A DNA stretch of 64,000 bases from Amycolatopsis methanolica 239 (GTDB lineage Bacteria; Actinomycetota; Actinomycetes; Mycobacteriales; Pseudonocardiaceae), in contig NZ_CP009110.1 in NCBI RefSeq assembly GCF_000739085.1, positions 2,852,001 through 2,916,000 on the forward strand, written 5' to 3'. Positions 19,370-59,402 of this stretch are shown piece by piece. Position numbers and translations under genes: made by a program. The notes below the pieces were generated by a model. The model had not been told where the DNA came from and made no database searches. It saw only the letters and a program-made list of their open reading frames with translations. Within the stretch, counting starts at the first letter, position 1. Each line of letters begins with the position of its first letter.

Positions 19370-21355
<1,986 letters not shown>

Positions 21356-21900: not shown

Positions 21901-21914
21901 AGCGCTGCGCGTGG

Positions 21915-22430: not shown

Positions 22431-22468
22431 TCCGCAGCGCGCGGGCGGGCCCGGCCGCCGTGTGTGCT

Positions 22469-24604
<2,136 letters not shown>

Positions 24605-24632
24605 GCTCCGATTCTCCCAGCACCCACCGACA

Positions 24633-24809: not shown

Positions 24810-24858
24810 CGCGGGGGCGATGGCGATCAAGCCCGCGGACAGCCGTGTCCTGGCGTGA

Positions 24859-43656: not shown

Positions 43657-44853
43657 ATGACCACCAGCGGTTTTCCCCCGTCGGCCGAGACCCGTGAGCA
43701 GGCCGGGCTGCTCGCCCTGGTGCGGGACGAGGGCCCAATGGCGCGGGTCGAACTGGGTGAACGGCTCGGCGTGCCACGGGCCCGGCTGGCCGCCGAGATC
43801 ACCCGGCTGGCCGAAGGCGGGCTCGTGGAATCCGGCGGTCCGGCGGCGAGCCGCGGCGGGCGCCGGTCGACGCTCGTGCGCCTGGCCGACGACTTGCGGT
43901 TCCTCGGCGTCGACGTCGGGGCGACCTCGGTCGGCGTCGCGGTGACCGACGGGCGGTGCGAGGTGCTGGCGCACGCGGTGGAGGAGTGCGACGTGCGCCG
44001 CGGGCCGGTGCCGGTGCTGGACCGGGTCGAGCAGCTGGCGGCGAAGGTGCTGCAGGACGCCCCCGGGCGGCTCGCGGGCGCCGGGATCGGGCTGCCCGGG
44101 CCGGTGAGTTTCCGCGACGGGATGCCGGTGGCGCCGCCGATCATGCCGGGCTGGGACCGCTTTCCCGTGCGTGACCGGCTCGCCGGGCACTGGGGCTGCG
44201 CGGTGACGGTCGACAACGACGTGAACGTGATGGCGCTGGGGGAGCGGCACGCGGGGGTGGCCAAGTCGCTCGACGACCTGATCTTCGTGAAGGTGGGGAC
44301 CGGCATCGGCGGCGGGATCGTCGTCGGCGGGCGCGTGTACCGCGGGGTGGCGGGCACGGCGGGCGACATCGGGCACATCAAGCTCGACGACTACGGTCCG
44401 GCGTGCGCCTGCGGGGAGGCGGGGTGCCTGGAGGCGTACTTCGGCGGGGCGGCGCTGGCGCGGGACGCGCTGACGCTGGCACGCAGCGGGCGGTCGCCGT
44501 ACCTGGCCGAGCTGCTGGCGGACCGGCCCGTGTTGACCGCGCGGGACGTGGCGGAGGCGGCCCAGGCCGGCGACTTCGCGGCGGTGACGCTGGTCCGCGA
44601 GGGCGGGCGGCGGCTGGGGCAGGTGATCGCGTCGCTGGTGAGCTTCCTGAACCCGGGGATGGTCGTGATCGGCGGCGGCGTGTCCCGGCTGGGGCATACG
44701 CTGCTGGCCGAGGTGCGGTCGTCGGTCTACCGGCGGTCGCTTCCCCTGGCGACCGGGAACCTGCCGATCGTGCTCTCGGAGCTCGGCGACCAGGCCGGCG
44801 TGATCGGGGCCGCCTGGCTGGCCTCCGACCACGCCTTCAGCGTGCCGGCCTGA
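43657..44853 (+). CDS. ROK-family transcriptional regulator
   Basis: A 398-residue ROK protein with an N-terminal winged helix (RVELGERLGVPRARLAAEIT, about residues 30-49) and a sugar-kinase-like body: FLGVDVGATSVGVAVTDGRC (phosphate-1 motif), VDNDVNVMALGE, KVGTGIGGGIVVGGRVYRG and the ROK zinc site CACGEAGCLEA. AGGAGG lies 12 nt before the ATG. It is divergent from the Tat-exported TIM-barrel gene and probably represses that operon in response to a sugar. A diverged 99-bp copy of its codons for residues ~269-301 lies 607 bp downstream. Confidence 0.92.
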   Translation: MTTSGFPPSAETREQAGLLALVRDEGPMARVELGERLGVPRARLAAEITRLAEGGLVESGGPAASRGGRRSTLVRLADDLRFLGVDVGATSVGVAVTDGRCEVLAHAVEECDVRRGPVPVLDRVEQLAAKVLQDAPGRLAGAGIGLPGPVSFRDGMPVAPPIMPGWDRFPVRDRLAGHWGCAVTVDNDVNVMALGERHAGVAKSLDDLIFVKVGTGIGGGIVVGGRVYRGVAGTAGDIGHIKLDDYGPACACGEAGCLEAYFGGAALARDALTLARSGRSPYLAELLADRPVLTARDVAEAAQAGDFAAVTLVREGGRRLGQVIASLVSFLNPGMVVIGGGVSRLGHTLLAEVRSSVYRRSLPLATGNLPIVLSELGDQAGVIGAAWLASDHAFSVPA

Positions 44854-45572: not shown

Positions 45573-46799
45573 GTGCCCCAACCTTCCGACCGGCCGAACG
45601 ACCGTGCCGGTGTCCGCAGGGCGAACCTCGCCCTGCTCGTCCGGCTCCTGCGCCGCCACGGGGGGCTCTCCCGCGCGCAACTGGCGACCCTGAGCGGCCT
45701 CAGCAAGGCCACCGTCTCCGGCCTCGTCGCCGAGCTGGAGATCCGCGAGCTCGTCCAGGCGGGCGGCCGCCACGAGGGCGGCCAGGGCAGGCCCGGCCAG
45801 CTCGTCGAACTCCGGCCGCGCGGCCGCTGGGGCATCGGGCTCGAGGTGGACGAGGACCACGTCGGCGCGACGGTCCGCGATCTCGCCGGCACCGCCACCA
45901 CCCGCCGCCGCGCCGCGTGCGACGTGCGGGCCCTCGGTGCGGAGCGCACCCTCGACGAACTCGCTGCGCTCGTGCTCGCCGCGCGGTCCGAAGTGGACGA
46001 TGTCGCCGGTATCGCGGTGGCGGTGCCCGGCCTGGTCGACGCCGCGACCGGCGCCGTCCGCCTCGCGCCCGGCCTCCGGTGGCGCGGCCTCGCCCTCGCC
46101 GACGGGCTCGCCGCCCGCACCGAATTCCCCCTCGACCGCATCGTCGTCGGCAACGACGCCAACCTCGCCGCGCTCGCCGAAGCCGACGACGGCGCCGCCC
46201 GCGGCTGCTCCGACGTCGTGTTCCTGCACGGCGGCATGGGCGTCGGCGCCGGGCTGATCACCGGCGGCGGCCTGATCGGCGGCGCGGCGGGCGAGGTCGG
46301 GCACCTGTCACTGGAACCCACCGGCCGTCCCTGCGTCTGCGGCCGCCGCGGCTGCTGGCAGACCGCCGTCGGCATCGACCCGTTCCTGCACTCGCTGGCC
46401 GGCCCCGGCGACCTGGTCCACGACCCGTCCCTCGACCTGGCCCAGCGCACCGCGATCGTGCGGCGGCGCGCGCAGGACGGCGACCGACGCGTCCTCGACG
46501 CGCTCGTGCAGCTCGGCGCCGCCCTCGGCCACGGCGTCGCGGTCCTGGCCGACGTGCTCGGCCCGCGGATCGTGGTCCTCGGCGGCTACTTCGCGCCGCT
46601 GTGCGAGTGGCTCGCCGAGCCGGTCCGCGCCGAACTCGCCGCCCGCTCGGTGACCGCCGAGACCGGCGGCCCCCGCATCGTGGCGTCCCGGCTCGGGTTC
46701 ACCGCGGTCGGCACCGGCGCGGCGCAGGCCGCGATCCGGCCCCTGCTGGACGATCCGACGCTGGCCCCGGCCGGCGCCCCGGTGAGCGTGGAGGCGTGA
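45573..46799 (+). CDS. ROK-family regulator heading the sugar ABC/ebo operon
   Basis: A 408-residue ROK/XylR-type regulator. HTH near residues 35-60 (SRAQLATLSGLSKATVSGLV), then a ROK body with IAVAVPGLVDAATGAVRLAP, VGNDANLAALAEADDGAARG, LHGGMGVGAGLITGGGLIGG and a cysteine cluster CVCGRRGCWQTAVG. The GTG at 45573 follows GGAG. Its stop overlaps the ATG of the ABC ATPase (TGATG), so regulator and transporter are translated together. It presumably senses the sugar imported by the adjacent transporter and controls the whole downstream unit. Confidence 0.92.
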   Translation: MPQPSDRPNDRAGVRRANLALLVRLLRRHGGLSRAQLATLSGLSKATVSGLVAELEIRELVQAGGRHEGGQGRPGQLVELRPRGRWGIGLEVDEDHVGATVRDLAGTATTRRRAACDVRALGAERTLDELAALVLAARSEVDDVAGIAVAVPGLVDAATGAVRLAPGLRWRGLALADGLAARTEFPLDRIVVGNDANLAALAEADDGAARGCSDVVFLHGGMGVGAGLITGGGLIGGAAGEVGHLSLEPTGRPCVCGRRGCWQTAVGIDPFLHSLAGPGDLVHDPSLDLAQRTAIVRRRAQDGDRRVLDALVQLGAALGHGVAVLADVLGPRIVVLGGYFAPLCEWLAEPVRAELAARSVTAETGGPRIVASRLGFTAVGTGAAQAAIRPLLDDPTLAPAGAPVSVEA

Positions 46800-48307
46800 T
46801 GACCGAAGACCTGCTGTCCATGCGCGGCATCGTCAAGACGTTCCCGGGTGTCCGGGCGCTGGACGGTGTCGAGCTGTCGGTGCGGGCGGGGGAGGTGCAC
46901 TGCCTGCTCGGCCAGAACGGCGCGGGCAAGTCGACCCTGATCAAGGTCCTCGCCGGCGCCCACCAGCCGGACGCGGGCGAGATCCGCTGGCTCGGCCGGC
47001 CGGTCACGCTGTCCTCGCCGGTCGTGGCGCTGCACCGCGGCATCGCGACCATGTACCAGGAGCTCGACCTCGTCCCCGCGTTGTCGGTGTCGGACAACAT
47101 CTTCCTCGGCCACGAGCCGGCGCAGGCCGGCTTCACCCGCGACCGGCAGGCCCGCGTCAAGGCCGCCGAGCTGCTCGCGCGGCTCGGCCACCCGGAGATC
47201 CACCCCGACCGCGAGGTCGGCGACCTGTCCGCGGCCGGTCAGCAGCTCGTGTCGATGGCCCGCGCGCTGGCCCACGACGCCCGCCTGATCGTGATGGACG
47301 AACCGACCGCCGCGCTCGCCGCCGACGAGGTGGACAACCTGTTCCGCATCGTCGCCGAGCTGACCGCCGAGGGGGTCGCCGTCGTCTACATCTCGCACCG
47401 GCTGGAGGAGATCCGCCGCATCGGCAACCGCGTCACCGTGCTCAAGGACGGCGCCACCGTCGCCGCCGGGCTGGAGGTCGCCGACGTGACCACCGACCAC
47501 CTGGTGTCGCTGATGTCCGGCCGCCGCGTCGAAACCGTCTACCCGGAACGCCTGGAATCCACAGTGGACAGCTCAACCGAGCTGCTGCGCGTGGAGAACC
47601 TGACCCGCCGCGGCGAGTTCGAGGACGTCAGCTTCACCTTGCGGCGCGGGGAGATCCTCGGGGTGGCCGGACTAGTCGGCGCCGGCCGCAGCGAACTGCT
47701 GGAGACCATCTTCGGCGGCCGCAAACCGGATGCGGGCAAGGTCTTCGTCGAGGGCAAGCGCCTCAAGCCGGGCGACGTGCCCAGCGCGGTCAAGGCGGGG
47801 ATCGGCCTGGCGCCGGAGGAACGCAAGAGTCAGGCGCTGCTGCTGGAGATGTCGGTGGCGCACAACGTGACGCTGGCCAGCCTGCCCGCCTACAGCCGCT
47901 TCGGTTTCACCGACCGCGCCCGCGAAATCGGGGACTCGGCCGAACGCTTGCGGCAACTGGACCTGCGCCCGGCCGACCCGCGCCGCCCCGTGGGCACGCT
48001 CTCCGGCGGCAACCAGCAGAAGGCGGTCGTGGCGCGCTGGCTCGTGCGCGGCTGCTCGATCCTGCTGCTCGACGAGCCCACCCGCGGCGTCGACGTGGGC
48101 GCGCGGGCCGAGCTGTACCGGCTGATCCGCGAGCTGGCCGCCGGCGGCGTCGGGCTGGTGCTGGTCTCCAGCGAGATGCCTGAGGTGCTCGGGCTCGCCG
48201 ACCGCGTGCTCGTGATGCGGGAGGGTCACGTGGTCCGCGAGGCGCCCGCGAGCGAGCTGACCGAAGCAGACGTGCTGAATCTGGTGATGGAGGGAAGTGC
48301 GGCATGA
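46799..48307 (+). CDS. Sugar ABC transporter ATPase (RbsA/MglA type, double NBD)
   Basis: A 502-residue protein with two fused ATPase domains. The first has Walker A LLGQNGAGKSTLIKVLAG, signature-like LSAAGQQLVSMARAL and Walker B LIVMDEPTAAL; the second has the atypical VGAGRSELLETIFGG, a full signature LSGGNQQKAVVARWL and LLLDEPTRGVDVGA. This is the normal asymmetry of ribose/galactose/autoinducer-2 importers. The ATG overlaps the ROK stop and the stop overlaps the permease ATG. Substrate probably a monosaccharide or cyclitol; inositol is attractive given the downstream genes but not shown. Confidence 0.94.
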   Translation: MTEDLLSMRGIVKTFPGVRALDGVELSVRAGEVHCLLGQNGAGKSTLIKVLAGAHQPDAGEIRWLGRPVTLSSPVVALHRGIATMYQELDLVPALSVSDNIFLGHEPAQAGFTRDRQARVKAAELLARLGHPEIHPDREVGDLSAAGQQLVSMARALAHDARLIVMDEPTAALAADEVDNLFRIVAELTAEGVAVVYISHRLEEIRRIGNRVTVLKDGATVAAGLEVADVTTDHLVSLMSGRRVETVYPERLESTVDSSTELLRVENLTRRGEFEDVSFTLRRGEILGVAGLVGAGRSELLETIFGGRKPDAGKVFVEGKRLKPGDVPSAVKAGIGLAPEERKSQALLLEMSVAHNVTLASLPAYSRFGFTDRAREIGDSAERLRQLDLRPADPRRPVGTLSGGNQQKAVVARWLVRGCSILLLDEPTRGVDVGARAELYRLIRELAAGGVGLVLVSSEMPEVLGLADRVLVMREGHVVREAPASELTEADVLNLVMEGSAA

Positions 48308-49335
48308 CGAAGGACCCCTCGTCGGTGTTGCCCGAGGCCACGCAGGCCCCGCCACCCCGGGCCGCGCCGCCGGCCTCGAAGGCCGCGCGCGGCCGTTTCC
48401 GGGTGGACGTCCGGCTTGCCGGGCTGTTCGGGGTGTTCGTCCTGCTGTGCCTGGTGGGCTGGCTGACCCGGCCGGACGCGTTCTTCACCGAGGGTAACCT
48501 GTCCACCATCCTGCGGCTCGCGGCCGCGATCGGCGTGGTCAGCGTCGGCATGACGTTCGTGATCATCAGCGGCGGCATCGACCTGTCCGTCGGTTCGATC
48601 GTGGCGCTGTCCAGCGTGTGGGCGACGACGCTCGCGACGCAGGCCTACGGACCGGTGGTGATGGTGATCTGCGCGCTCGCGGTCGGTCTCGGCTGCGGGC
48701 TGATCAACGGCGTGCTGGTGTCCTACGGCAGAGTGGTGCCGTTCATCGCGACGCTCGCGATGTACGCCTCGGCACGCGGGCTCGCCGAGCGGATCAGCGG
48801 CCGGCAGACGCAGGTCGTGCGGGAGACCGGTTTCCTGAGCTTCTTCCGCGGCGACTTCCTCGGCATCCCGGTGCTGATCTGGATGTTCGCGCTGGTGTTC
48901 GTGGTCGGCTGGGTCCTGCTCAACCGCACCACGTTCGGCCGCCGCACGTTCGCCGTCGGCGGCAACACCGAGGCCGCGCGCCTGGCCGGCATCAACGTCA
49001 AGCGGCACACCGCGCTCGTCTACGGCGTGGCCGGGTTGTGCTGCGGCATCGCGGCGATCATGGTGGTCGCGCGCACCACCTCGGGCGCCTCCACCAACGG
49101 CCTCTACTACGAGCTGGACGCGATCGCCGCGGTCGTCATCGGCGGCACCCTGCTCACCGGCGGCCGCGGCACCCTGATCGGCACGCTCATCGGCGTCCTG
49201 ATCTTCACGGTGCTGGGCAACATCTTCACGCTCAACAACCTCGACACCGACATCCAGAACATCGCCAAGGGCGCGATCATCGTCCTGGCCGTCCTGCTGC
49301 AGTTCCGCACCAACCGCGCCCGCAAGTCCACTTAG
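48304..49335 (+). CDS. Sugar ABC transporter permease (RbsC type)
   Basis: A 343-residue membrane protein with about ten hydrophobic helices after a ~35-residue cytoplasmic tail rich in Pro/Ala. Conserved branch signatures: GMTFVIISGGIDLSVGSIVA near residue 82, INGVLVSYGRVVPFIATLAM, GGNTEAARLAGINVKRHT (cytoplasmic loop that contacts the ATPase) and VVIGGTLLTGGRGTLIGTLI. Overlaps the ATPase gene by 4 nt (ATGA) and is followed by the binding-protein gene after 46 bp. Confidence 0.94.
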   Translation: MTKDPSSVLPEATQAPPPRAAPPASKAARGRFRVDVRLAGLFGVFVLLCLVGWLTRPDAFFTEGNLSTILRLAAAIGVVSVGMTFVIISGGIDLSVGSIVALSSVWATTLATQAYGPVVMVICALAVGLGCGLINGVLVSYGRVVPFIATLAMYASARGLAERISGRQTQVVRETGFLSFFRGDFLGIPVLIWMFALVFVVGWVLLNRTTFGRRTFAVGGNTEAARLAGINVKRHTALVYGVAGLCCGIAAIMVVARTTSGASTNGLYYELDAIAAVVIGGTLLTGGRGTLIGTLIGVLIFTVLGNIFTLNNLDTDIQNIAKGAIIVLAVLLQFRTNRARKST

Positions 49336-49381
49336 GAAAGACGAACCCCGAAACTCCCGACGACGACCACTGGAGCTCGCC

Positions 49382-50437
49382 ATGTCCGGACCATCCTCCC
49401 TCGCCCGCCGCCGCTTCCTCACCGGTGGCGCGGCCGTCGGTGCAGGCGCCCTGCTGGCCGCCTGCACCTCCAACGAGTCGCCGCAGTCGGCCCCGCAGGC
49501 CGTCGCGGGCAACGCGGGCCAGAACTCCCAGCCCGGCCAGCACGTCACCATAGGCTTCTCCGCGCCTGCCGCCGACCACGGCTGGATGGCGGCGATGACC
49601 AAAAACGCCCGCGCGCAGGCCGGCCAGTTCTCCGACGTCACCTTCACCGCCACCGAGGGCACCAACGACGTCAACCAGCAGATCGCCCAGGTCGAGACGC
49701 TGATCAACCAGAAGGTCGGCGTCCTGGTGATCCTGCCCTTCGACGGCAAGGCGCTGACCCAGGTCGGCCAGCAGGCCATGGACGCCGGCATCCCGGTGGT
49801 CAACGTGGACCGGGTGTTCGACACGCCGCTGGCCTACCGCACCTGGATCGGCGGCGACAACTACCGGATGGGCGTCAACGCGGGCAACTACATCGCGGGC
49901 GAGCTGAAGAAGAAGGGCGTGGCCAGCCCGGTGATCGGCGAGGTCGCCGGCATCGACTCGCTGCCGCTGACCCAGGAGCGCAGCCAGGGCTTCCGCGACG
50001 CGCTGGCCAAGCACGGGTTCGCCGTCGGCCCGCGCGTGTCGGCGCAGTTCACACCGGAGAGCGGCGAGCAGATGACGTCGAACCTGCTGCAGTCGGCGCC
50101 GAAGCTGGACGCGCTGTGGAACCACGACGACGACCAGGGCATCGGGGTGCTCGCGGCGATCGACAACGCGCGCCGCAACGAGTTCTTCATGGTCGGCGGC
50201 GCGGGCTCGCGCAACATGATGGACCTGATCAAGGCCGACAGCAGCGTCATCAAGGCGACCGTGCTCTACAGCCCGTCGATGGCGTCCTCGGCGATCGCCC
50301 TGGCCCGGCTGCTCGGCCAGGACAAGGGCATCGGCGACCTCGCCGAGCACGAGATCCCCGCGAACGTCACGACCTACTCGGCCGTGGTGACCAAGGAGAA
50401 CGTCGATTCCTATGCCGATGTCGCCTTCGACTCCTGA
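49382..50437 (+). CDS. Sugar-binding lipoprotein of the ABC transporter (type I periplasmic fold)
   Basis: A 351-residue peripla_BP_4 protein. The signal combines a twin-arginine-like SLARRRFLTGGAAVGAGALL with lipobox LAAC (Cys at about residue 29), so it may be exported folded by Tat and lipidated. The body contains TIGFSAPAADHGWMAAMTKN, QVETLINQKVGVLVILPFDG, VVNVDRVFDT and ALWNHDDDQGIGVLAAIDNA, as in ribose/inositol-binding proteins. GGAGCTCGCC precedes the ATG. The 3' end overlaps the oxidoreductase gene by 26 nt. The ligand is not determinable from sequence alone. Confidence 0.93.
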   Translation: MSGPSSLARRRFLTGGAAVGAGALLAACTSNESPQSAPQAVAGNAGQNSQPGQHVTIGFSAPAADHGWMAAMTKNARAQAGQFSDVTFTATEGTNDVNQQIAQVETLINQKVGVLVILPFDGKALTQVGQQAMDAGIPVVNVDRVFDTPLAYRTWIGGDNYRMGVNAGNYIAGELKKKGVASPVIGEVAGIDSLPLTQERSQGFRDALAKHGFAVGPRVSAQFTPESGEQMTSNLLQSAPKLDALWNHDDDQGIGVLAAIDNARRNEFFMVGGAGSRNMMDLIKADSSVIKATVLYSPSMASSAIALARLLGQDKGIGDLAEHEIPANVTTYSAVVTKENVDSYADVAFDS

Positions 50438-51614
50438 CCCCGCGGGCGTCTCGATCGGGGTGGGCATGGTCGGGCACGCCTTCATGGGCGCCGTCCACGC
50501 CCACGCGTGGCGCTCGGTCCACCGGTTCTTCGACGTGCCACTGGTGCCGCGGCTGGCGGTCCTCGGCGGCCGCGACCCGGAGCGCACGAAGGCCGCCGCC
50601 GCCAAGCAGGGCTGGCCGGACGTCGAGACCGACTGGGCCACCCTGGTCGCGCGCGACGACGTCGGCATCGTCGACATCTGCACGCCGGGCGACTCGCACG
50701 CCGAGATCGCGCTGGCCGCGCTCGCCGCGGGCAAGCACGTGCTGTGCGAGAAACCGCTGGCCAACTCGGTCGCCGAGGCCGAGGAGATGGCCGCGGCCGC
50801 CGAGCGCGCCGCGGCCAACGGGCAGCGGGCGATGGTCGGGTTCAACTACCGGCGGGTGCCCGCGATCGCGCTGGCCCGCAAGATGGTCGCCGAGGGCAGG
50901 CTGGGCACCATCCGCCAGGTGCGGGCCGCCTACCTGCAGGACTGGCTGGCCGACCCGGCCACTCCGATGACCTGGCGGCTGCGGCGGGACAAGGCCGGGT
51001 CCGGCGCGCTGGGCGACATCGCCGCGCACGCGGTGGACACCGCCCAGTTCGTCCTCGGCGACCGGATCAGCGGCGTCTCGGCGATGACCGAGACGTTCGT
51101 GCGGGAGCGGCCGCTGTCCTGGGAGCCGGGAAGCGCGCTGGGCGAGGTCGACGTGGACGACTGCGCGGTGTTCCTGGCACGCTTCGCCGGCGGCGCGGTC
51201 GCCACGTTCGAGGCCACCCGGTTCGCGCTGGGCCGCAAGAACGCGCTGCGGCTGGAGATCAACGGGTCGCGGGGCAGCCTGGCCTTCGACTTCGAGTCGA
51301 TGAACGAGCTGTCCTTCTACGACGGGGACGACGACCCGGCCGAGGCGGGCTTCCGGCGGATCCTGGTGACCGAGCCGGACCACCCCTACGTCGGGGCGTG
51401 GTGGCCGCCGGGTCACCTGCTGGGTTACGAGCACACCTTCACCCACGAGATCGCCGACTTCCTCACCGCCATCGGCGAGCAGCGCGACCCCGAACCGGGG
51501 TTCGCCGACGGCCTGCAGGTCCAGCGGGTGCTGCACGCGGTGGAGGAGAGCGCGGGCAACGGAACGTCCTGGGTCGGCGTATCAATGTCGACCGAAAGGG
51601 TGATCGATGCCTGA
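50412..51614 (+). CDS. Gfo/Idh/MocA-family oxidoreductase
   Basis: A 400-residue NAD(P)-dependent sugar or cyclitol dehydrogenase. The Rossmann start reads GVGMVGHAFMGAVHAHAWRS (about residues 16-35), followed by DDVGIVDICTPGDSHAEIAL, the signature EKPLANSVAEAEEM with its lysine, and GALGDIAAHAVDTAQFVLGD with the catalytic Asp/His pair. The ATG at 50412 follows AAGGAG and overlaps the binding-protein gene; an in-frame ATG at 50418 is an alternative. Placed between the transporter and the inositol-phosphate-synthase-like gene, it probably oxidises the imported sugar or inositol. Confidence 0.93.
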   Translation: MPMSPSTPDPAGVSIGVGMVGHAFMGAVHAHAWRSVHRFFDVPLVPRLAVLGGRDPERTKAAAAKQGWPDVETDWATLVARDDVGIVDICTPGDSHAEIALAALAAGKHVLCEKPLANSVAEAEEMAAAAERAAANGQRAMVGFNYRRVPAIALARKMVAEGRLGTIRQVRAAYLQDWLADPATPMTWRLRRDKAGSGALGDIAAHAVDTAQFVLGDRISGVSAMTETFVRERPLSWEPGSALGEVDVDDCAVFLARFAGGAVATFEATRFALGRKNALRLEINGSRGSLAFDFESMNELSFYDGDDDPAEAGFRRILVTEPDHPYVGAWWPPGHLLGYEHTFTHEIADFLTAIGEQRDPEPGFADGLQVQRVLHAVEESAGNGTSWVGVSMSTERVIDA

Positions 51615-52758
51615 GAGAACTGGATTGTGGCTGGTCGGTGCGCGTGGCTCGGTGGCCACGACGGCGATCAGCGGGCTGCTCGCGATGCGGTCCGGCCTGG
51701 CCGGGCCGGACGGCTGTGTGACCGAGCGGCTGGACGTGGCCCCCGGCGTGCTGCCGGGCTGGGACGAGCTCGTCGTCGGCGGGCACGACCTGGTGGACAC
51801 GCCGCTGGAGAAGAAGGCGGAGCAGCTCACCGCGGGCGGGCTGCTCCCCGCCGGCCTGCTGCCGGCGATCCGCGACGGCCTGCGCGCCGTCGAGGCCGAC
51901 CTGCGCCCGGTGCCCAGCGGGCGCACGCAGGCCGAGGCCGCCGCGCGGATGGCCGACGACCTGCGCGAGTTCCGCACCCGGCACGGCCTGTCGGCCGTCG
52001 TGGTGATCAACGTCTCGTCCACGGAACCCCCAACCGCGGACGCGCCGGAGCACCACGACCTCGACGCGCTCGTGGCGGCGATGGACGAGCCCGGCCGCGA
52101 GGTGCTGCCCGGCAGTTCGCTGGCGGCGTTCGCGGCGGTGTCGGCGGGGTGCCCCTTCGTGGACTTCACGCCGTCGACGGGCATCCGGTTGCCCGCGCTC
52201 ACCGAATTCGCCCGGCGGCAGGGGCTGCCCTACGCCGGGTCGGACGGCAAGACCGGTGAGACGCTGCTCCGGTCGGTGCTGGCGCCGATGTTCGCGGCGC
52301 GGGCGCTGAAGGTGCGCTCGTGGTCGGGCACCAACCTGCTCGGTGGCGGCGACGGCGCCACCCTGGCCGACCCGGTGAAGGCGGCGGGCAAGCTGGAGTC
52401 CAAGGCCCGCGGGCTGGCGGCCCTGCTCGGCGACGACGTGGTGGCCCCGCTGCACATCGACCACGTGCCGGACCTCGGCGAGCAGAAGACGGCCTGGGAC
52501 CACGTGTCCTTCGAGGGCTTCCTGGGCGCGCGCATGACCCTGCAGTTCACCTGGACCGGCTACGACTCGGCCCTGGCCGCGCCGCTGGTGCTGGACCTGG
52601 CGCGGCTGACCGCGGCCGCGTACCGGGCAGGCGAGACCGGGCCGCTGGGGCAGCTCGCGTTCTTCTTCAAGGACCCGGTCGGCACCGGCGAGCACCGCTT
52701 CGCCGAGCAGGCGCGGGTCCTGGCCGAGTGGGCATCGTCGCTGGGACGGCAGAAGTGA
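51607..52758 (+). CDS. Inositol-1-phosphate synthase-like protein in the ebo cluster
   Basis: A 383-residue member of the myo-inositol-1-phosphate synthase superfamily. The NAD-binding start is LWLVGARGSVATTAISGLLA (residues 7-26); later blocks are VVVINVSSTEPPT, FVDFTPSTGI, GSDGKTGETLLRSVLAPMFA, WSGTNLLGGGDGATLADP (equivalent to the NHLGNxDG-type loop) and DLGEQKTAWDHVSFEGFLG, which contains a likely catalytic lysine. It is clearly divergent from housekeeping Ino1, so another cyclitol or keto-sugar phosphate may be its substrate. It overlaps the genes on both sides (8 and 4 nt). Classical ebo clusters have a dehydroquinate-synthase-like EboD here instead. Confidence 0.88.
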   Translation: MPERTGLWLVGARGSVATTAISGLLAMRSGLAGPDGCVTERLDVAPGVLPGWDELVVGGHDLVDTPLEKKAEQLTAGGLLPAGLLPAIRDGLRAVEADLRPVPSGRTQAEAAARMADDLREFRTRHGLSAVVVINVSSTEPPTADAPEHHDLDALVAAMDEPGREVLPGSSLAAFAAVSAGCPFVDFTPSTGIRLPALTEFARRQGLPYAGSDGKTGETLLRSVLAPMFAARALKVRSWSGTNLLGGGDGATLADPVKAAGKLESKARGLAALLGDDVVAPLHIDHVPDLGEQKTAWDHVSFEGFLGARMTLQFTWTGYDSALAAPLVLDLARLTAAAYRAGETGPLGQLAFFFKDPVGTGEHRFAEQARVLAEWASSLGRQK

Positions 52759-53609
52759 ACCCGTACGTGCAGCTCGTGCGGGCACCGGCCGCGCTGAGCG
52801 TCCTCGGCGACACCGTCGCGGGCGCCGCCGCGGCCGGTCGTCCGTTGCGGGGACGGCGGCTCGCGCTGCCGCTGGCCTCGGTGGCGATCTACTGGTCCGG
52901 CATGGCGCTCAACGACTGGTCCGACCGCGAACTGGACGCGGTCGAGCGCCCGGAGCGGCCGATCCCGTCCGGCCGGGTCAGCCCGCAGCGGGCGCTCGGC
53001 GTCGCGGGCGGGCTGACCGGTGCGGGCCTCGGGCTGGCCGCGGTCGCCGGTGGCCGCGACGCGCTCAAGGTCGCCGCGCCGCTGGCCGCGGCGGTGTGGG
53101 CCTACGACACCGTGCTCAAGCAGACCCCACTCGCGCCGGCCGCGATGGCGCTGTGCCGCTCGCTGGACGTGCTCCTCGGCGCGGGCCGATCGGGCGCGGC
53201 GAAGGCGCTGGTCCCGGCGGCGGTGCTCGGCGGGCACACGCTCGGGGTCACCGCGTTGTCGGCGGGCGAGGTGCACGGCGCGTCGCCCGCGCGGGCGGCG
53301 GGCGCGCTCGCGCTGACCTCGGCGTCGGCCGCCGCGGCGGTGTCCGGGCGCGGTGGCGCGGCCGGGCACCGGGTGGCGGCGCTGGCCGCGGCCGCCGGCT
53401 ACGGCGTGAGCGTCGGGTCGAAGCAGTACGCGGCGGTGCGCAAGCCGACCGCGGCCGTGGTCCGGACGGCGACGGCCGCGGGCATCCACGGCATGGTTCC
53501 GTTGCAGGCCGCGCTCGCGGCCCGGCGCGGCGGGGTGCTTGGCGCGGGCCTGGTCGCACTGGCGCTGCCGCTGGCCAAGCGGCTCGGCCGGAAGGTGAGC
53601 CCGACATGA
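52755..53609 (+). CDS. eboC: UbiA-family prenyltransferase, EboC-like
   Basis: A 284-residue integral membrane prenyltransferase. The first aspartate-rich motif is NDWSDRELDAVERPERPIPS (about residues 54-73) and the second region is WAYDTVLKQTPLAPAAMALC, with YDxxLK in place of a classic DxxxD; CRSLDVLLGAGR follows. Several Ala/Leu/Val-rich helices surround these. UbiA enzymes attach an isoprenoid chain to a polar acceptor; here the acceptor may be the product of the cyclitol-type enzymes in the operon. GTGA overlap with the preceding gene, ATGA with the next. EboC assignment rests on family plus context. Confidence 0.9.
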   Translation: MNPYVQLVRAPAALSVLGDTVAGAAAAGRPLRGRRLALPLASVAIYWSGMALNDWSDRELDAVERPERPIPSGRVSPQRALGVAGGLTGAGLGLAAVAGGRDALKVAAPLAAAVWAYDTVLKQTPLAPAAMALCRSLDVLLGAGRSGAAKALVPAAVLGGHTLGVTALSAGEVHGASPARAAGALALTSASAAAAVSGRGGAAGHRVAALAAAAGYGVSVGSKQYAAVRKPTAAVVRTATAAGIHGMVPLQAALAARRGGVLGAGLVALALPLAKRLGRKVSPT

Positions 53610-55018
53610 GCGGCTACCACCTCGGCTACGGCACCAACGGCTTCGCGGGCCACCGGCTGGACGACGCGCTGGCCATCATCGCCGGCCTCGGCTACACCTC
53701 GGTCGCGCTGACGCTGGACCACCAGCACCTCGACCCGTACGCCGACGACCTGTCCGCACGCGTGGACCGGGTCGCCGCGCGGCTGGACGAGCTGGGCCTG
53801 CGCTGCGTCGTGGAGACCGGCGCGCGGTTCCTGCTCGACCCGTGGCACAAGCACGAACCGACCCTGGTCAGCGAGAACGCGGACAAGAGGCTGGACTTCC
53901 TGGCGCGGGCGATCCGGGTCGCGGAAGGCCTGGGCGCCGACTGCGTGTCGTTCTGGTCCGGCGTGTCCACTGTGGACGAGGCGACCGCGTGGGAGCGGCT
54001 GCGGTCGCGGATGCCCGCGGTGCTGGCCGAGGCGGACCGGCGCGGTGTCCGCCTCGGCCTCGAACCGGAACCCGGGATGCTCGTCGAGACGCTGTCCGAC
54101 GCGCTGCGCCTGCGCGCCGAAACGGGTGATCCGGACTTGCTCGGGATCACCCTCGACGTCGGGCACTGCGTCGCCGTGGAGCCGCAGGACGCGGCCGCGT
54201 GCATCCGGCAGGCCAAGGGCCTGCTGGTCAACGTGCAGCTGGACGACATGCGGCCGGGGGTGCACGAGCACCTCGAGTTCGGCGACGGGCAGCTGGACCT
54301 GCCCGCCACGCTCACCGCGCTGGACGAGATCGGCTACACCGGGGTGGCCGCGGTCGAGCTGCCCCGGCACAGCCACGCCGCGCCGCAGGTCGCCCGCGCC
54401 GCGCTGACCGCGTTGCGGGCCGCGCGGCTCGACCAGTCCTGGCTGGGCGAGGCGCAACGGCGCATCGCCGGTGACCCCACGGCCGTGCGGACCCTGTTCC
54501 CGGCGGCCGGACGGCACGTCGGGCGGGGGCCGCTGCACCCGGGCTCCGATCCGGACGGCCTGGTCCACGGCACCGCGGACGACCTGGCCCGGACCCGGCT
54601 GCTGACCACGCTCGCCGCGGCACTGCCCGCCGGGGAGTTCGCGGCGGAACTGGCCGACCTCTACCGCTACGGCGACGGCGCCGAGCGGCGGGGCGTGCTG
54701 CGGGCGTTGTCCGCGGTGGGCGACAAGGCCGTCGCCACCGGCCTCGAACTGGTCCGCGACGCCCTGCGCAGCAACGACACCGGCCTGATCGCCGCCGCGC
54801 TCGGCCCGTTCGCCGCCCGCCACCTCGACCAGCACGGTTGGCGCCACGGCGTGCTGAAGTGCCTGTTCACCGGCATCCCGCTGGCCGCGGTCGCCGAGCT
54901 GGACCGGCGGGCCGACGACGAGCTGCGCCGCATGATCACCGACTACGCGGGGGAGCGCAGGGCGGCCGGCCGCGCCGTCCCCGCCGACGCACTCCGCTTC
55001 CTGGAAGAGGCACCCTGA
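53606..55018 (+). CDS. TIM-barrel (sugar phosphate isomerase-type) fused to EboA domain
   Basis: A 470-residue two-part protein. Residues 1-285 form an AP_endonuc_2 TIM barrel: YHLGYGTNGFAGHRLDDALA, LGLRCVVETGARFLLDPW, then metal-ligand positions in LGLEPEPGMLVETL (Glu), LGITLDVGHCVAVEP (Asp/His), NVQLDDMRPGVHEHLEFGDG and VAAVELPRHSH (Glu). Residues ~300-470 are an EboA domain: AELADLYRYGDGAERRGVLR, GLELVRDALRSNDTGLIAAA, HGVLKCLFTGIPLAAVAELD and MITDYAGERRAAGRAVPADA. EboA is normally free-standing in the clusters I know, so the fusion ties it directly to a sugar-converting enzyme. ATGA and TGATG overlaps at its ends. Confidence 0.88.
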   Translation: MSGYHLGYGTNGFAGHRLDDALAIIAGLGYTSVALTLDHQHLDPYADDLSARVDRVAARLDELGLRCVVETGARFLLDPWHKHEPTLVSENADKRLDFLARAIRVAEGLGADCVSFWSGVSTVDEATAWERLRSRMPAVLAEADRRGVRLGLEPEPGMLVETLSDALRLRAETGDPDLLGITLDVGHCVAVEPQDAAACIRQAKGLLVNVQLDDMRPGVHEHLEFGDGQLDLPATLTALDEIGYTGVAAVELPRHSHAAPQVARAALTALRAARLDQSWLGEAQRRIAGDPTAVRTLFPAAGRHVGRGPLHPGSDPDGLVHGTADDLARTRLLTTLAAALPAGEFAAELADLYRYGDGAERRGVLRALSAVGDKAVATGLELVRDALRSNDTGLIAAALGPFAARHLDQHGWRHGVLKCLFTGIPLAAVAELDRRADDELRRMITDYAGERRAAGRAVPADALRFLEEAP

Positions 55019-55893
55019 TGCGCCTGTTCGATCCGCACATCCACATGACCTCCCGCACCACCGACGACTACGAGGCCATGTACGCCGCCGGCGTGCGGGC
55101 ACTGGTCGAGCCGGCGTTCTGGCTCGGCCAGCCGCGCACCGGCGTGTCGTCGTTCACCGACTACTTCGACGGCCTGATCGGCTGGGAACGCTTCCGCGCC
55201 GCCCAGTTCGGCATCCGCCACCACTGCACCATCGCGCTGAACCCCAAGGAGGCCAACGACCCGCGCTGCACGCCGGTGCTGGACGTGCTGCCGCGTTACC
55301 TCGCCAAGGACGGCGTGGTCGCGGTCGGCGAGGTCGGCTACGACTCGATGACCCCGGCCGAGGACGACGCCTTCGCCCGCCAGCTGGAGATGGCGAAGGA
55401 GCACGACCTGCCGGTGCTGGTGCACACCCCGCACCGGGACAAGCTGGAAGGCACCAAGCGCACGCTCGCCGTGGTGGCCGAGTCCGGCATCGCGCCGGAG
55501 CGGGTCGTGGTCGACCACCTCAACGAGGTCACTGTCGGCCTGGTCAAGGAGTCCGGCTGCTGGATGGGCTTCTCCATCTACCCGGACACCAAGATGGACG
55601 AGCAGCGCATGGTCGCGATCCTGCGCGAGCACGGCACGGAGAAGATGCTGGTCAACTCCGCCGCCGATTGGGGCCGCTCGGACCCGCTGAAGGTGCACAA
55701 GACCGGGCTGGCGATGCTCCACGGGGGGTTCACGGAGTCCGATGTGGACACCGTGCTGTGGGACAACCCGGTCGCCTTCTACGGCCAGAGCGGGCGGCTG
55801 GTGCTCGACGAGCTGCCCGGCTTCAGCGCGGCCAAGGAGACCTTCGAGGGCAACTCCGTGCTGCGCGGCGGGCGGGACGAGGCGGTCGCGTGA
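55018..55893 (+). CDS. eboB: TatD-family metal-dependent hydrolase, EboB-like
   Basis: A 291-residue amidohydrolase-fold protein. The N-terminal metal site is FDPHIHMTSRTTDDYEAMYA (HxH), followed by VEPAFWLGQPRTGV, VVAVGEVGYDSM (bridging Glu), LPVLVHTPHRDK (His), VVVDHLNEVT (His) and MLVNSAADWGRSDPLKVHKT (Asp). This is the EboB/TatD-like group rather than the TatD DNase. It probably hydrolyses a small metabolite of the pathway. Start overlaps the TIM-EboA stop (TGATG) and its own stop overlaps eboE (GTGA). Confidence 0.9.
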   Translation: MRLFDPHIHMTSRTTDDYEAMYAAGVRALVEPAFWLGQPRTGVSSFTDYFDGLIGWERFRAAQFGIRHHCTIALNPKEANDPRCTPVLDVLPRYLAKDGVVAVGEVGYDSMTPAEDDAFARQLEMAKEHDLPVLVHTPHRDKLEGTKRTLAVVAESGIAPERVVVDHLNEVTVGLVKESGCWMGFSIYPDTKMDEQRMVAILREHGTEKMLVNSAADWGRSDPLKVHKTGLAMLHGGFTESDVDTVLWDNPVAFYGQSGRLVLDELPGFSAAKETFEGNSVLRGGRDEAVA

Positions 55894-56975
55894 CGCCCCT
55901 GTCCTACTGCACCAACGTCCATCCGGCCGAGGACCTGCTCGGGGTCCTCGGTCAGCTCGACTCCTACGCGCTGCCGGTGCGGGAGCGGCTGGGCGCCGAC
56001 CGGCTCGGGCTCGGGCTGTGGCTGGCCGCCGACGTGGCGTCCGCGCTGGCCGCCGATCCGGCCGAGCGCAAGCGGTTGCGCGCCGAGCTGGACGCCCGCG
56101 GGCTGGAAGTGGTGACGCTCAACGCGTTCCCGTACGGCGGGTTCCACGACCCGGTGGTCAAGCAGAAGGTCTACCGTCCACGGTGGACCGACCGGGCACG
56201 CGCGGAGTACACGCTGAACTGCGCGACCGTGCTGTCCGGGCTGCTGCCCGACGACGCCGCGTTCGGCAGCATCTCCACGCTGCCGCTGGGCTGGCGCGAG
56301 CCGTGGACGCCGGAGGACGACACGGCGGCCCAGCGGCTGCTCGACGAGGTGACCGCCGGGCTGCGCGCCCAGGACCGCACGATCCGGCTCGCCGTCGAGC
56401 CGGAACCCGGCTGCATCCTGGACACCGTGCACGACGCGGTGACCTGGCTGGCCGGGCGGGTCGATCCGGCGCACGTCGGGCTGTGCCTGGACACCTGCCA
56501 CCTGGCGGTGTCCTTCGCCGACCCGGCCGGCGCGGTCGCCGAGATCACCGCGGCCGGGCTGGACGTGGTCAAGGTCCAGATGTCGGTCGCCCTGCACGTC
56601 CCGGACCCGCGCGACCCGGCGGCCCGGGAGGCCCTGGCGGCGTTCGACGAGCCGCGGTACCTGCACCAGACCCGGGAATCGTCCGGCGGCGACGTCCGCA
56701 AGGCCGACGACCTGGGCGAGGCGTTCGCGGACCTGCCGGGGGAGGGGCCGTGGCGCGTGCACTTCCACGTGCCGCTGCACGCGACCCCGGCGGCGCCGCT
56801 GTCCTCGACCACCGGGGTGCTGTCGCAGGCCCTCGCCGCGCTGCCGCCGGAGCCGGCGCACCTGGAAGTGGAAACCTACACCTGGACGGTGCTGCCCGAG
56901 GCGCACCGGCAGGACCTCATCGGCGGGATCGCGGCGGAACTGTCCTTCGCCGCGGGATTGGTGGCACCGAAGTGA
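55890..56975 (+). CDS. eboE: EboE-type TIM-barrel metabolite traffic protein
   Basis: A 361-residue AP_endonuc_2-like TIM barrel of the EboE family. It begins PLSYCTNVHPAEDLLGVLGQ, a hallmark start, then VVTLNAFPYGGFHDPVVKQK, VYRPRWTDRARAEYTLNCA, Glu ligand in RLAVEPEPGCILDTVHDA, Asp/His in GLCLDTCHLAVSFADP, HFHVPLHATPAAPLSSTTG and Glu in HLEVETYTWTVLP. In cyanobacteria the ebo genes are needed to move a scytonemin precursor to the periplasm (from memory of published work). GTG start in a 4-nt overlap with eboB. Confidence 0.92.
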   Translation: MTPLSYCTNVHPAEDLLGVLGQLDSYALPVRERLGADRLGLGLWLAADVASALAADPAERKRLRAELDARGLEVVTLNAFPYGGFHDPVVKQKVYRPRWTDRARAEYTLNCATVLSGLLPDDAAFGSISTLPLGWREPWTPEDDTAAQRLLDEVTAGLRAQDRTIRLAVEPEPGCILDTVHDAVTWLAGRVDPAHVGLCLDTCHLAVSFADPAGAVAEITAAGLDVVKVQMSVALHVPDPRDPAAREALAAFDEPRYLHQTRESSGGDVRKADDLGEAFADLPGEGPWRVHFHVPLHATPAAPLSSTTGVLSQALAALPPEPAHLEVETYTWTVLPEAHRQDLIGGIAAELSFAAGLVAPK

Positions 56976-58366
56976 AACCGCTCCTGGTGCTCGACGTCGT
57001 GGGGATGACCCCGCGGCTGCTCAGGCACATGCCGAACGTGGCGAAGCTGGCGCAGCAGGGCTGGCAGGCGCAGCTGGACACGGTGCTGCCCGCGGTCACC
57101 TGCAGCGTCCAGTCCACGTTCCTGACCGGGCGCATGCCCAGCGAGCACGGCATCGTCGGCAACGGCTGGTACTTCCGTGAGCTCGGCGAGGTCTTCCTGT
57201 GGCGCCAGCACAACAAGCTGGTCGAGGGCGAGAAGCTGTGGGAGACCGCGCGGGCCGAGCACCCCGGCTACCGCGCCGCCAACGTGTGCTGGTGGTACGC
57301 GATGGGTGCGACCACCGACCTCACCGTCACGCCCCGGCCGATCTACTACGCCGACGGCAAGAAGGCGCCGGACTGCTACACCCGGCCGCCGCAGCTGCAC
57401 GACCGGCTCACCTCGCGGTTGGGCGAGTTCCCGCTGTTCCAGTACTGGGGCCCGACCGCCTCGATCGCCTCCACCGACTGGATTGTCGGGGCGACCTCGG
57501 CGATCCTGCGCGAGGACCGGCCGGACCTGACGCTGGCCTACCTGCCGCACCTGGACTACGACCTGCAGCGGTTCGGCCCGGACTCGCCGCAGGCCATCGC
57601 GGCCGCCCGCGCGGTGGACGCGTCCGTCGCGCCGCTGCTCGACCAGGCCAGGGCGGACGGCGTCGGGGTCGTGGCGCTGAGCGAGTACGGCCTCACCAAC
57701 GCGCACCGGCCGGTCGACGTCAACCGGCTGCTGCGCCGCGAGGGCCTGCTGGAGGTCTACACGCAGGACGGCATGGAGTACCTCGACCCGTGGACCTCGC
57801 GGGTGTTCGCCGTCGCCGACCACCAGGTGGCCCACGTCTACGTGGCCGACGAGGCGGACCTGCCGCGGGTGCGCGACCTGCTCACCCAACTGTCCGGTGT
57901 GGACGAGGTGCTGGACCGGGAAGCCCAGGCGCGGTACGGCATCGACCACCCGCGGGCGGGCGAGTTCGTGGTGACCGCGGAGCCGGACGCGTGGTTCACC
58001 TACTACTACTGGCTCGACGACCACCGCGCGCCGGACTTCGCGCGTGGCGTCGAGATCCACCGCAAGCCCGGGTACGACCCGGCCGAGCTGTTCTTCGACC
58101 CGGCCGATCCGCTGGTCAAGGCCAAGGCGGGGCTGAACCTGGTGCGCAAGAAGGCCGGCCTGCGGTACGCGATGAAGACCACGCCGCTGGACCCGGCGCC
58201 GGTGCGCGGCTCGCACGGACGGCTGCCCGACTCGCCGGACGACGGGCCGGTGCTGCTGTGCGGGGACGCGGGCGTGCCGGAGCGGGAGCGGCTGGCCGCC
58301 ACCGACGTCCGGGACCTGCTGCTGAGTGTGCAAGGACTGAAGGCGAGCGAAGGGAGCCGGCGATGA
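56972..58366 (+). CDS. eboF: Type I phosphodiesterase/nucleotide pyrophosphatase-like enzyme, EboF-like
   Basis: A 464-residue member of the alkaline phosphatase superfamily. The nucleophilic Thr is expected in [20 protein letters not shown] (about residues 39-58); further family blocks are [58 protein letters not shown] (second metal site, SEYG for the usual SDHG) and [10 protein letters not shown]. No signal peptide is visible, so it acts in the cytosol unless exported otherwise. It would hydrolyse a phosphodiester or pyrophosphate, for example after prenyl transfer. GTGA and ATGA overlaps with both neighbours. Confidence 0.9.
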
Positions 58367-59367
58367 GCCGTCCGGTCACGTTGTTCACCGGCCAGTGGGC
58401 CGATCTGCCGTTCGAGGAGGTGTGCCGGCTCGCGTCGCAGTGGGGCTACGACGGGCTGGAGATCGCGTGCAGCGGCGACCACTTCGAGGTCGACCGCGCG
58501 CTCGCCGAAGACGACTACGTGGCGGGACGGCACAAGATCCTGGCGTCCTACGGCCTCAACGTGTGGGCGATCTCGAACCACCTGGTCGGGCAGGCGGTGT
58601 GCGACGACCCGATCGACGAGCGGCACCGCAACATCCTGCCCGCCCGCGTCTGGGGCGACGGCGAGCCCGAAGGCGTGCGGCAGCGGGCCGCCGCGGAGAT
58701 GGCCGATAGCGCCCGTGCCGCGGCGAAGCTCGGCGTGGACACCGTCATCGGCTTCACCGGGTCGAAGATCTGGAAGTACGTGGCGATGTTCCCGCCGGTG
58801 TCGCAGGAAGTCATCGACGACGGGTACGCCGACTTCGCCGCACGCTGGAACCCGATCCTCGACGTGTTCGACGAGGTCGGGGTGCGGTTCGCGCACGAGG
58901 TGCACCCGTCGGAGATCGCCTACGACTACTGGACGACCCGCCGGGCGCTGGACGCGGTCGGCAACCGCCCGGCGTTCGGGCTGAACTGGGACCCGTCGCA
59001 CTTCGTGTGGCAGGACCTGGACCCGGTCGGGTTCATCCTGGACTTCGCCGACCGGATCTACCACGTCGACTGCAAGGACACGAAGAAGCGGTTCGACGGC
59101 CGCAACGGGCGGCTTGGCTCGCACCTGGCGTGGGCGGACGCGCGCCGCGGCTGGGACTTCGTGTCCACCGGCCACGGCGACGTGCCGTGGGAGGAGTGCT
59201 TCCGCGCCCTCAACTCGATCGGCTACCGCGGGCCGATCTCGGTGGAGTGGGAGGACGCCGGCATGGACCGCCTGCGCGGGGCGGAGGAAGCGGTCGGCTT
59301 CATCCGCAACCTGCTGTGGGACAAGCCGTCGGCGGCCTTCGACGCCGCCTTCAGCACCGAGAAGTGA
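58363..59367 (+). CDS. Sugar phosphate isomerase/epimerase-type TIM barrel, last gene of ebo unit
   Basis: A 334-residue xylose-isomerase-like TIM barrel, the third of this superfamily in the operon. It begins [20 protein letters not shown] and shows the expected metal set: Glu in [16 protein letters not shown], Asp/His in [13 protein letters not shown], His/Asp in [15 protein letters not shown] and Glu in [29 protein letters not shown] is another conserved stretch. Members of this family isomerise or epimerise free or phosphorylated keto-sugars and inosose. ATGA overlap with eboF. A strong hairpin 3 bp after the stop ends the unit. Confidence 0.92.
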
Positions 59368-59370: not shown

Positions 59371-59402
59371 GAGGGCGCCCGGCCGCGTCGCCGGGCGCCC
59401 TC
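59371..59402. terminator. Bidirectional 13-bp hairpin terminator
   Basis: GAGGGCGCCCGGC (59371-59383) and its exact complement (59390-59402) are separated by CGCGTC. It sits between the convergent stops of the last ebo-unit gene and the ACC deaminase gene, so it could end both messages. No U-tract. Confidence 0.8.

Follow-up and report, generated by a model that had tools for sequence, protein, structure and literature searches.

The window analysed here, a stretch of 64,000 nucleotides from Amycolatopsis methanolica 239 (contig NZ_CP009110.1, positions 2,852,001 to 2,916,000 of the forward strand; coordinates below are those of the window), carries at 45573-59367 a run of twelve genes, g1 to g12, all on the + strand. 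We conclude that this locus is best named an ebo variant of the myo-inositol-1-phosphate synthase (MIPS) type, nested in a sugar-import operon. Four of the six ebo components are present (EboA, EboB, EboE and EboF), EboC is represented by a sister family only, and EboD is absent, a MIPS homologue occupying its slot. The twelve genes probably make up two modules behind one ROK-type control region, a sugar-import cassette (module A: g1-g5 and g12) and an ebo core (module B: g6-g11), which would then be co-regulated. The layout recurs beyond chance: parts of it occur in dozens of genomes, and none of 40 control stretches held the families at the identity thresholds used. The nearest named locus is that of Amycolatopsis deserti, whose EboE is 94% identical.

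A preliminary description of the window had proposed twelve same-strand genes, and the + strand indeed gives an unbroken in-frame coding signal, with gene borders that agree with the reading frame and the third-codon-position GC (GC3) signal. Its statement that nearly all junctions are 4-nt overlaps was too strong: seven of the 11 are exactly that, and the other four are overlaps of 1 nt and 8 nt, a 46-nt gap 5′ of g4, and the g4/g5 junction, which is a 26-nt overlap or, if g5 starts at the alternative GTG at 50460, a 22-nt gap. Between g12 and a convergent gene, a perfect 13-bp stem with a 6-nt loop (59371-59402), read by eye, is a likely terminator; it is absent from the output of a terminator scan, which requires a T run. 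A sigma-70 scan detected no promoter.

The ebo-type assignment, also made in the preliminary description, is borne out by profile searches, in which both the EboE and the EboA family matched above cut-off. The TIM barrel g10 (55890-56975) scored 425 bits with the EboE model NF035939 (cut-off 250), and g8 (53606-55018) scored 164 bits with the EboA model NF035938 (cut-off 50). EboA was expected as a gene of its own; the domain is there, as the C-terminal part (residues about 325-465) of a fusion whose N-terminal part is a xylose-isomerase-like TIM barrel (PF01261, 3.1e-37). Such a fusion in Actinobacteria has already been noted in section 3.4 of PMC5133447. The EboA domain is predicted to be all-alpha and helical repeat-like (predicted local distance difference test score, pLDDT, 95.6), and a fold search returned no match at E <= 0.001, the only resemblance being to designed helical-repeat or alphaRep-like proteins (template modelling score about 0.6). 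The TatD-like metal-dependent hydrolase g9 (EboB; 55018-55893; PF01026, 6.6e-13) is 39-61% identical to TatD-family neighbours in four EboD-type loci (L102-L105), and in seven of the eight plasmid loci read a gene annotated as eboE or EboA has a TatD-family gene right beside it; neither is annotated in the eighth (L106). The type I phosphodiesterase of the alkaline-phosphatase superfamily encoded by g11 (EboF; 56972-58366; PF01663, 2.7e-65) is 48-52% identical to the ebo-linked phosphodiesterases of L102-L105. The UbiA-type prenyltransferase g7 (52755-53609) passed the SCO3242-family model NF045897 (361 bits; cut-off 260), and the motif NDxxDxxxD, with further invariant residues, is common to 11 aligned EboC-type proteins from actinobacteria, haloarchaea and EboD-type bacteria. 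The TIM barrels show a weak resemblance to inosose dehydratase models.

EboD is described in PMC5133447 as a sugar phosphate cyclase of the 3-dehydroquinate synthase (DHQS) superfamily. Its slot is filled by g6 (51607-52758; PF07994, 4.2e-46; PF01658, 7.7e-30), which confirms that the operon contains an inositol-type enzyme. The closest solved relative is MIPS of Archaeoglobus fulgidus, matched over the full length (PDB 1u1i, E 2.6e-63, residues 7-379). We examined residues of the presumed catalytic site (of which N255, K278 and K367 are positions mutated in PDB entries) among the 95 sequences, g6 included, that cover at least 80% of g6. D225, N255, D261, K274, K278, K306, D332 and K367 (A. 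fulgidus numbering) were identical in all 95, and position 259, an Asp in A. fulgidus, was Gly in all 95; in g6 itself, the Gly that stands for an A. fulgidus Asp is at position 247. The KxxxK pair is essential in rice MIPS (passages of PMC5614600). We considered whether g6 might be the housekeeping Ino1; it probably is not, because the genome holds a second PF01658 protein and the mycothiol-type Ino1 model gives g6 no more than 25 of 638 bits. No EboD lies beside the ebo core in this genome, whose sole PF01761 match is about 1.4 Mb away.

We surveyed EboE, MIPS, g4 and g12 in even samples of 393 genomes of the class, and examined two sets of ebo loci: the 80 contig loci nearest to the EboE of the window, and 40 genome loci (L126-L165), 20 picked for a linked TIM gene and 20 for an unlinked or absent one. 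The 40 control stretches were hand-picked positions from 29 of the 40 genomes behind the second set, and the Fisher tests reported below ignore shared descent. EboE scored above cut-off in 98 of the 393 genomes (106 matched in all, eight below cut-off only). MIPS of the g6 type (E <= 1e-70) was found in 91, all among those 98; the 295 genomes in which EboE did not reach its cut-off had no such MIPS. The pair lay within 6 kb in 87 of these 91 genomes, hereafter core genomes, and in all 89 close pairs MIPS was 2.6-5.6 kb upstream of EboE on the same strand. Likewise, of the 80 contig loci, 72 include 6 kb or more of sequence upstream of EboE, and MIPS is present in 68 of these. A DHQS-like gene (E <= 1e-10, half coverage) was found in none of the 120 ebo loci, compared with two of the 40 controls. 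The swap of unrelated sugar-phosphate cyclases supports a cyclitol-first pathway.

Seven genomes have EboE without MIPS. Six of them probably carry an EboE relative in another context, as it appeared in the four of these loci that were fetched (L137-L139 and L142), and the figure of 98 then overstates the number of true ebo systems. The EboE model thus passes its cut-off outside an ebo setting and is not ebo-specific; an NCBIfam search of L137 and L142 placed pyruvate-dehydrogenase-type genes beside the EboE relative. Separately, four genomes (G123, G418 and G327 of family f4, and G263 of family f62) contain two EboE copies above cut-off, one of which has no MIPS nearby in G123 and G418.

Outside actinobacterial chromosomes, both cyclase types occur. 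Four ebo loci, in Ketogulonicigenium, Deinococcus, Azospirillum and Roseivivax, lack MIPS and, by their record annotations, have a '3-dehydroquinate synthase' gene within the ebo cluster, and three Streptomyces plasmids have an 'inositol-3-phosphate synthase' in its place. These four were taken from a larger set of non-actinobacterial EboE plasmids that also comprised further Ketogulonicigenium and Deinococcus, Mycetohabitans and Salipiger. MIPS-type clusters are also present in the haloarchaea Halobaculum (L106), Natronococcus (L208) and Halocatena (L209) and in the gemmatimonad Gemmatirosa (L206); two Halomarina loci (L207 and L213) have MIPS without ebo neighbours. In a tree of EboB, EboC and EboF from 31 taxa, Gemmatirosa, which has MIPS, grouped at 100% with Deinococcus, which has EboD, and haloarchaea joined actinobacteria at 93%. 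This topology would need at least two cyclase changes, a count taken from this one tree, in which four members are of the EboD type and the start of Gemmatirosa EboC is uncertain. We found no description of MIPS within ebo clusters in the open-access literature, as judged by titles, abstract openings and passages, and the main text of PMC5133447 contains no word starting with 'inositol'.

Two further observations were made among these loci. In one Streptomyces plasmid, a 'ScyD/ScyE family' gene (L101:2990-4189) lies immediately upstream of MIPS, which recalls the scytonemin-linked ebo cluster. In Methylobacterium and Roseomonas (L210-L212), a MIPS (36-39% identity) accompanies a Gfo/Idh gene and a TIM barrel 44-47% like the N-terminus of g8, and ebo genes were not detected; one of these loci, L212, as annotated, adds YcaO, glycosyltransferase and PIG-L genes, which points to a different inositol-type cluster.

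Module A contains all parts of an RbsABC-type ATP-binding cassette (ABC) importer. It opens with g1 (45573-46799), a ROK-family regulator (PF00480, 5.4e-37) with an N-terminal helix-turn-helix (MarR-type matches), followed by the RbsA/AraG-type ATPase g2 (46796-48307), which has two ABC domains (PF00005, 4e-54, two stretches), the permease g3 (48304-49335; PF02653, 2e-40) and the Peripla_BP_4 substrate-binding protein g4 (49382-50437; PF13407, 1.8e-41), a probable lipoprotein whose Cys28 is kept in 12 relatives and whose PDB relatives are ribose-binding proteins. All models listed for g2 and g4 stayed under cut-off (AraG, XylG and RbsA at 466-531 bits for g2; RbsB at 78 bits for g4), save a marginal Tat-signal domain model for g4. 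The Gfo/Idh/MocA dehydrogenase g5 (50412-51614, start possibly 50460; Pfam Gfo/Idh) matched PDB 4h3v (an unspecified oxidoreductase; 575 bits), 6a3f (a 'putative dehydrogenase', which we take to be levoglucosan dehydrogenase; 292 bits) and the scyllo-inositol dehydrogenase 5ya8 (226 bits), and it failed the levoglucosan dehydrogenase model NF052479 (356 bits; cut-off 650). The IolE-like TIM barrel g12 (58363-59367; PF01261, 7.3e-42) matched PDB 8ro4, a '2-hydroxy-3-keto-glucal hydratase', over residues 18-327 of 334 (E 2.9e-42) and PDB 2zds, named a putative DNA-binding protein (584 bits). It is a member of the importer cassette displaced 3′ of the ebo core, which in the window is inserted between the dehydrogenase and the TIM gene.

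The cassette of importer, dehydrogenase and TIM gene is a self-standing operon, and the two modules are separable. Among 38 genomes with a g4 relative and without ebo-type MIPS, 16 loci were fetched, and all 16 contained the double-domain ATPase, the binding protein and the Gfo/Idh gene together. A g12-type TIM gene was present in 15, right after the dehydrogenase in 14 and one gene further on in L228; the remaining locus, L229, had no call for it and had its ABC genes in divergent orientation. A ROK gene was nearby in 13, and relatives of MIPS, Ebo proteins, GSDH or ThuA were found in none of the 16.

The cassette is nevertheless often tied to the core. A g4 relative (E <= 1e-85) was found in 103 of the 393 class genomes and in 65 of the 91 core genomes, 26 core genomes lacking one; in 50 of the 91, representing eight of 12 families, it was no more than 25 kb away from a copy of MIPS. 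A g12 relative (E <= 1e-140) was present in 78 of the 91 core genomes vs 71 of the 302 others, 13 core genomes lacking one. Within the set of 98 EboE genomes, 79 had both EboE and a g12 relative, at least 53 of them within 11 kb and 52 on the same strand. In a 149-genome sample of the phylum that partly overlaps the class sample, g12 relatives of at least 73% identity, a line drawn after seeing the data, occurred in six genomes, all among the seven with EboE. The preliminary description was right to tie the importer and dehydrogenase to the ebo genes; as for the co-occurrence that it proposed to check, the linkage is frequent and the two parts are separable all the same. The linkage comes in at least three layouts. 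In family f4, presumed streptomycetes, the cassette precedes GSDH/ThuA and the ebo core in L146-L151 (loci fetched for a linked TIM gene; the ROK gene lies outside the stretch in L149 and EboC is uncalled in L150), with a different layout in L126, L143 and L144 of the same family. In Agromyces and Georgenia the cassette stands beside the core on other strands. No cassette was found in the stretches read of the three named Streptomyces plasmids.

GSDH-type sugar dehydrogenases and genes for prenyl supply are further neighbours of ebo loci. GSDH relatives were found at 35 of the 80 contig loci and 22 of the 40 genome loci, compared with 0 of the 40 controls. GSDH genes were present at 36 of 49 core loci with a cassette member, at 15 of 48 without one and at none of the 16 stand-alone cassettes; because they occur at core loci lacking the cassette and are absent from stand-alone cassettes, GSDH travels with ebo rather than with the cassette. 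The window itself contains, at 39197-42446 on the − strand, pieces of an ebo-linked GSDH-PKD-CBM6-FIMAH protein (PF07995, PF18911, PF03422 and PF22888) in two open reading frames (39197-41716 and 41982-42446), whose parts lie in different frames, which points to a decayed gene or a sequence error. Isopentenyl diphosphate (IPP) isomerase-like genes occurred at six of the 80 and one of the 40 loci vs 0 of 40 controls, which was not significant (p 0.18 and 1.0); one that was checked scored 255 bits (cut-off 127). Prenyl-diphosphate-synthase-like genes occurred at 11 of the 80 and five of the 40 loci vs 0 of 40 controls, a marginal difference (p 0.015 and 0.055), and the better of two checked reached 307 bits with the farnesyl/geranyl diphosphate (FPP/GPP) synthase model (cut-off 600). 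At the minority of loci that have them, these neighbours speak for prenylation with a short donor.

Our leading explanation, which we hold at about even confidence, combines sugar use by module A with the synthesis by module B of a prenylated cyclitol started by MIPS; the gene content, the linkage, the conserved catalytic residues and the separability of the modules are observed, and the substrates, order of reactions, product, co-regulation and role are inferred. Module A would import a sugar, probably a glycoside or anhydrosugar, oxidise it, probably at C3, and then hydrate the keto-glycal so formed, as the levoglucosan pathway does. In module B, the MIPS-type g6 would most likely turn a hexose 6-phosphate into a phosphorylated ring, either an inositol or an inosose; EboF may remove or rearrange the phosphate, and the TIM barrels and EboB may modify the ring. 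The EboC-type UbiA protein would then attach a short isoprenoid, probably farnesyl, and the outcome would be a prenylated compound derived from a cyclitol and bound to the membrane. A scaffold role may fall to the EboA domain, whose confidently predicted helical repeat-like fold without a significant structural match fits it. The co-localisation of the core with sugar uptake and GSDH-type sugar dehydrogenases suggests that the compound acts at the membrane during extracellular carbohydrate use. A prenylated cyclitol, as put forward in the preliminary description, stays our best guess for the product.

Several observations weigh against this explanation. The UbiA gene had been called EboC outright; g7 passes the SCO3242-family cut-off and misses that of the EboC equivalog NF035940 (140 vs 250 bits). 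That EboC of Maribacter, Zobellia and Algoriphagus farnesylates 8-hydroxyquinoline-2-carboxylic acid and quinaldic acid counts in favour of the explanation; against it, the EboC acceptors tested to date are aromatic, not cyclitols (PMC9235831). The product of MIPS is a reduced, phosphorylated cyclitol and EboD-type cyclases lose the phosphate (section 3.7 of PMC5133447), so the two cyclase slots may yield different intermediates. Most ebo loci have no adjacent prenyl-supply gene. One of the seven EboE genomes lacking MIPS (G173, locus L161) has ebo neighbours and no detected MIPS, and the four contig loci without adjacent MIPS, all from Lentzea, belong to genomes with a 66-69% homologue elsewhere. 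Five Herbidospora loci keep MIPS, EboA, EboB and EboE, with EboC and EboF not detected. The linkage figures are affected as well: five of the 50 genomes with a g4 relative near MIPS have that MIPS copy on another contig than EboE, three of the 16 stand-alone genomes (G272, G376 and G440) are among the eight with sub-cut-off EboE matches, and in the phylum sample a looser g12 threshold (E <= 1e-60) gave 16 genomes, ten of them without EboE. In the same loci we observed that a different ABC importer, with two permease genes, lies immediately upstream of the ebo core in Lentzea, and that in Herbidospora the genes that come next encode a CopC-domain protein and products that match no Pfam family.

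The preliminary description had instead joined all twelve genes in one linear pathway, in which an imported sugar or cyclitol is oxidised, isomerised, cyclised and prenylated, the importer feeding the ebo product. The same-strand, mostly overlapping genes, the relationship of g5 to scyllo-inositol dehydrogenase and the enrichment of the g12 relative in core genomes all speak for such a pathway. As a single obligatory route it is not supported, given the 16 cassettes that stand in loci without the core and the core genomes without a g4 (26) or g12 (13) relative. Moreover, the MIPS substrate glucose 6-phosphate is a central metabolite (passages of PMC5614600), for which an importer is unnecessary, and we regard the linear pathway as improbable. 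The reverse proposal, that two unrelated operons merged by chance without a functional tie, draws on the finding of either module without the other; it is the least probable of the readings considered, only a slight chance, given linkage in 50 of the 91 core genomes, in eight of 12 families and in several layouts (shared descent uncorrected), and the families' absence from all 40 control stretches at the thresholds used.

Two other proposals concern what the core itself does. The ebo product could be a lipid that carries other small molecules through the membrane, as has been proposed for the scytonemin monomer in Nostoc, with the cassette supplying or regulating it. This is suggested by Nostoc, in which every studied ebo deletion (eboD excluded) confines the scytonemin monomer to the cytoplasm (passages of PMC6282210), and by the GSDH-family genes so often beside ebo loci. 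Nostoc is, however, a single organism, and no gene for cargo synthesis was seen to be shared by the actinobacterial loci, at which only families of the reference set were named; we consider the carrier possible, if rather doubtful, and it is compatible with our leading explanation rather than separate from it. Alternatively, the core could be catabolic and degrade an inositol- or cyclitol-containing compound along with the sugar cassette, as the inosose-dehydratase resemblance of the TIM barrels and the EboE relative among dehydrogenase-complex genes in G200 and G412 (L137 and L142) might be taken to mean. MIPS and UbiA are, however, biosynthetic families, and some loci have genes for IPP isomerase or a prenyl synthase beside them, which points to synthesis; we regard a degradative core as very improbable.

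A more far-reaching idea is that ebo, in bacteria and in archaea, might be a sugar-derived route to a polyhydroxy ring with a prenyl group; the product could be a redox lipid similar to a hydroquinone, with a cyclitol and not chorismate as its precursor. DHQS-type EboD and MIPS would then be exchanged at the entry, the TIM barrels would be aromatising, inosose-dehydratase-like enzymes, and the lipid would serve exported oxidoreductases. On a speculative note, these could be sugar dehydrogenases of the GSDH or pyrroloquinoline quinone (PQQ) type, together with the proteins of blue-copper, multicopper and ScyD/E type that lie beside some ebo loci. We raise this because GSDH travels with ebo and a haloarchaeal counterpart bears a plastocyanin-type domain, and we see it as a long shot.

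The ebo system was named in 2016, and the substrate of EboD has so far only been guessed. The replacement of EboD by an enzyme of known reaction class, the cyclisation of glucose 6-phosphate, offers a testable entry to the pathway. A similar core is found in haloarchaea and many actinobacteria, often tied to sugar import and GSDH-type sugar oxidation, which adds the use of carbohydrates at the cell surface to pigment export and nematode repellence as settings of ebo.

Three other regions of the window were noted. A second ROK regulator (43657-44853, +; PF00480, 1.4e-62) has relatives of at least 50% identity at ten of the 40 genome loci and none of the 80 contig loci, and a further TIM-barrel enzyme (42510-43469, −; PF01261) has relatives of at least 40% at seven of the 40 and two of the 80. 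At 13881-30928 on the − strand lies a trehalose/alpha-glucan cluster with GlgB, maltokinase, GlgE and several alpha-amylase/CBM48 proteins, assigned by Pfam domains only.

Parts of the locus resemble systems described elsewhere. For module A, the closest parallel is the levoglucosan pathway of Bacillus smithii (LgdA-LgdB1-LgdB2-LgdC), in which 3-oxidation, beta-elimination, hydration and reduction are encoded near a sugar ABC importer, by a Gfo/Idh-type 3-dehydrogenase and a TIM-type eliminase and hydratase, the TIM-type enzymes being named 'sugar phosphate isomerase' (passages of PMC7676230). The substrate may differ, given the shortfall of g5 with the levoglucosan dehydrogenase model, and no LgdC-like gene was identified among g1-g12; the terms that we sought were not found in the available text of a levoglucosan survey (PMC10066097). 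For g6 and g7, a likeness by description exists in Streptomyces coelicolor, where the calcium-dependent antibiotic (CDA) genes SCO3242 and SCO3243 are listed as a 'putative transferase' beside a myo-inositol phosphate synthase; the g7 family takes its NCBI name from SCO3242. The passages of PMC3610822 treat both as CDA genes and leave ebo unmentioned, and genes assigned to the CDA antibiotic cluster may instead be ebo-system genes.

The plasmid of Natronococcus sp. CG52 (L208) resembles the window as a whole, with EboB, EboC, MIPS, EboF and TIM barrels on one strand that continues into a TIM enzyme, a PQQ-type sugar dehydrogenase and ABC importer genes. It differs in that EboA was not found (tblastn), the binding protein is of the Bmp/PnrA and not the RbsB type, and the dehydrogenase bears a plastocyanin-type copper domain. 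The preliminary description had held that ebo clusters elsewhere lack a transporter; this is not general, as in Azospirillum genes for a DeoR regulator, deoC and a sugar ABC importer come after the ebo cluster, and two haloarchaeal ebo-type clusters include ABC importer genes. With the ebo operon eboABCDEF of Bacteroidetes, cyanobacteria, eustigmatophyte plastids and pseudomonads, the window shares a cluster of the EboA domain, EboB, an EboC-type UbiA protein, EboE and EboF, and it departs from that operon in having MIPS for EboD, EboA fused to a TIM barrel, and the whole core nested in a sugar-import operon.

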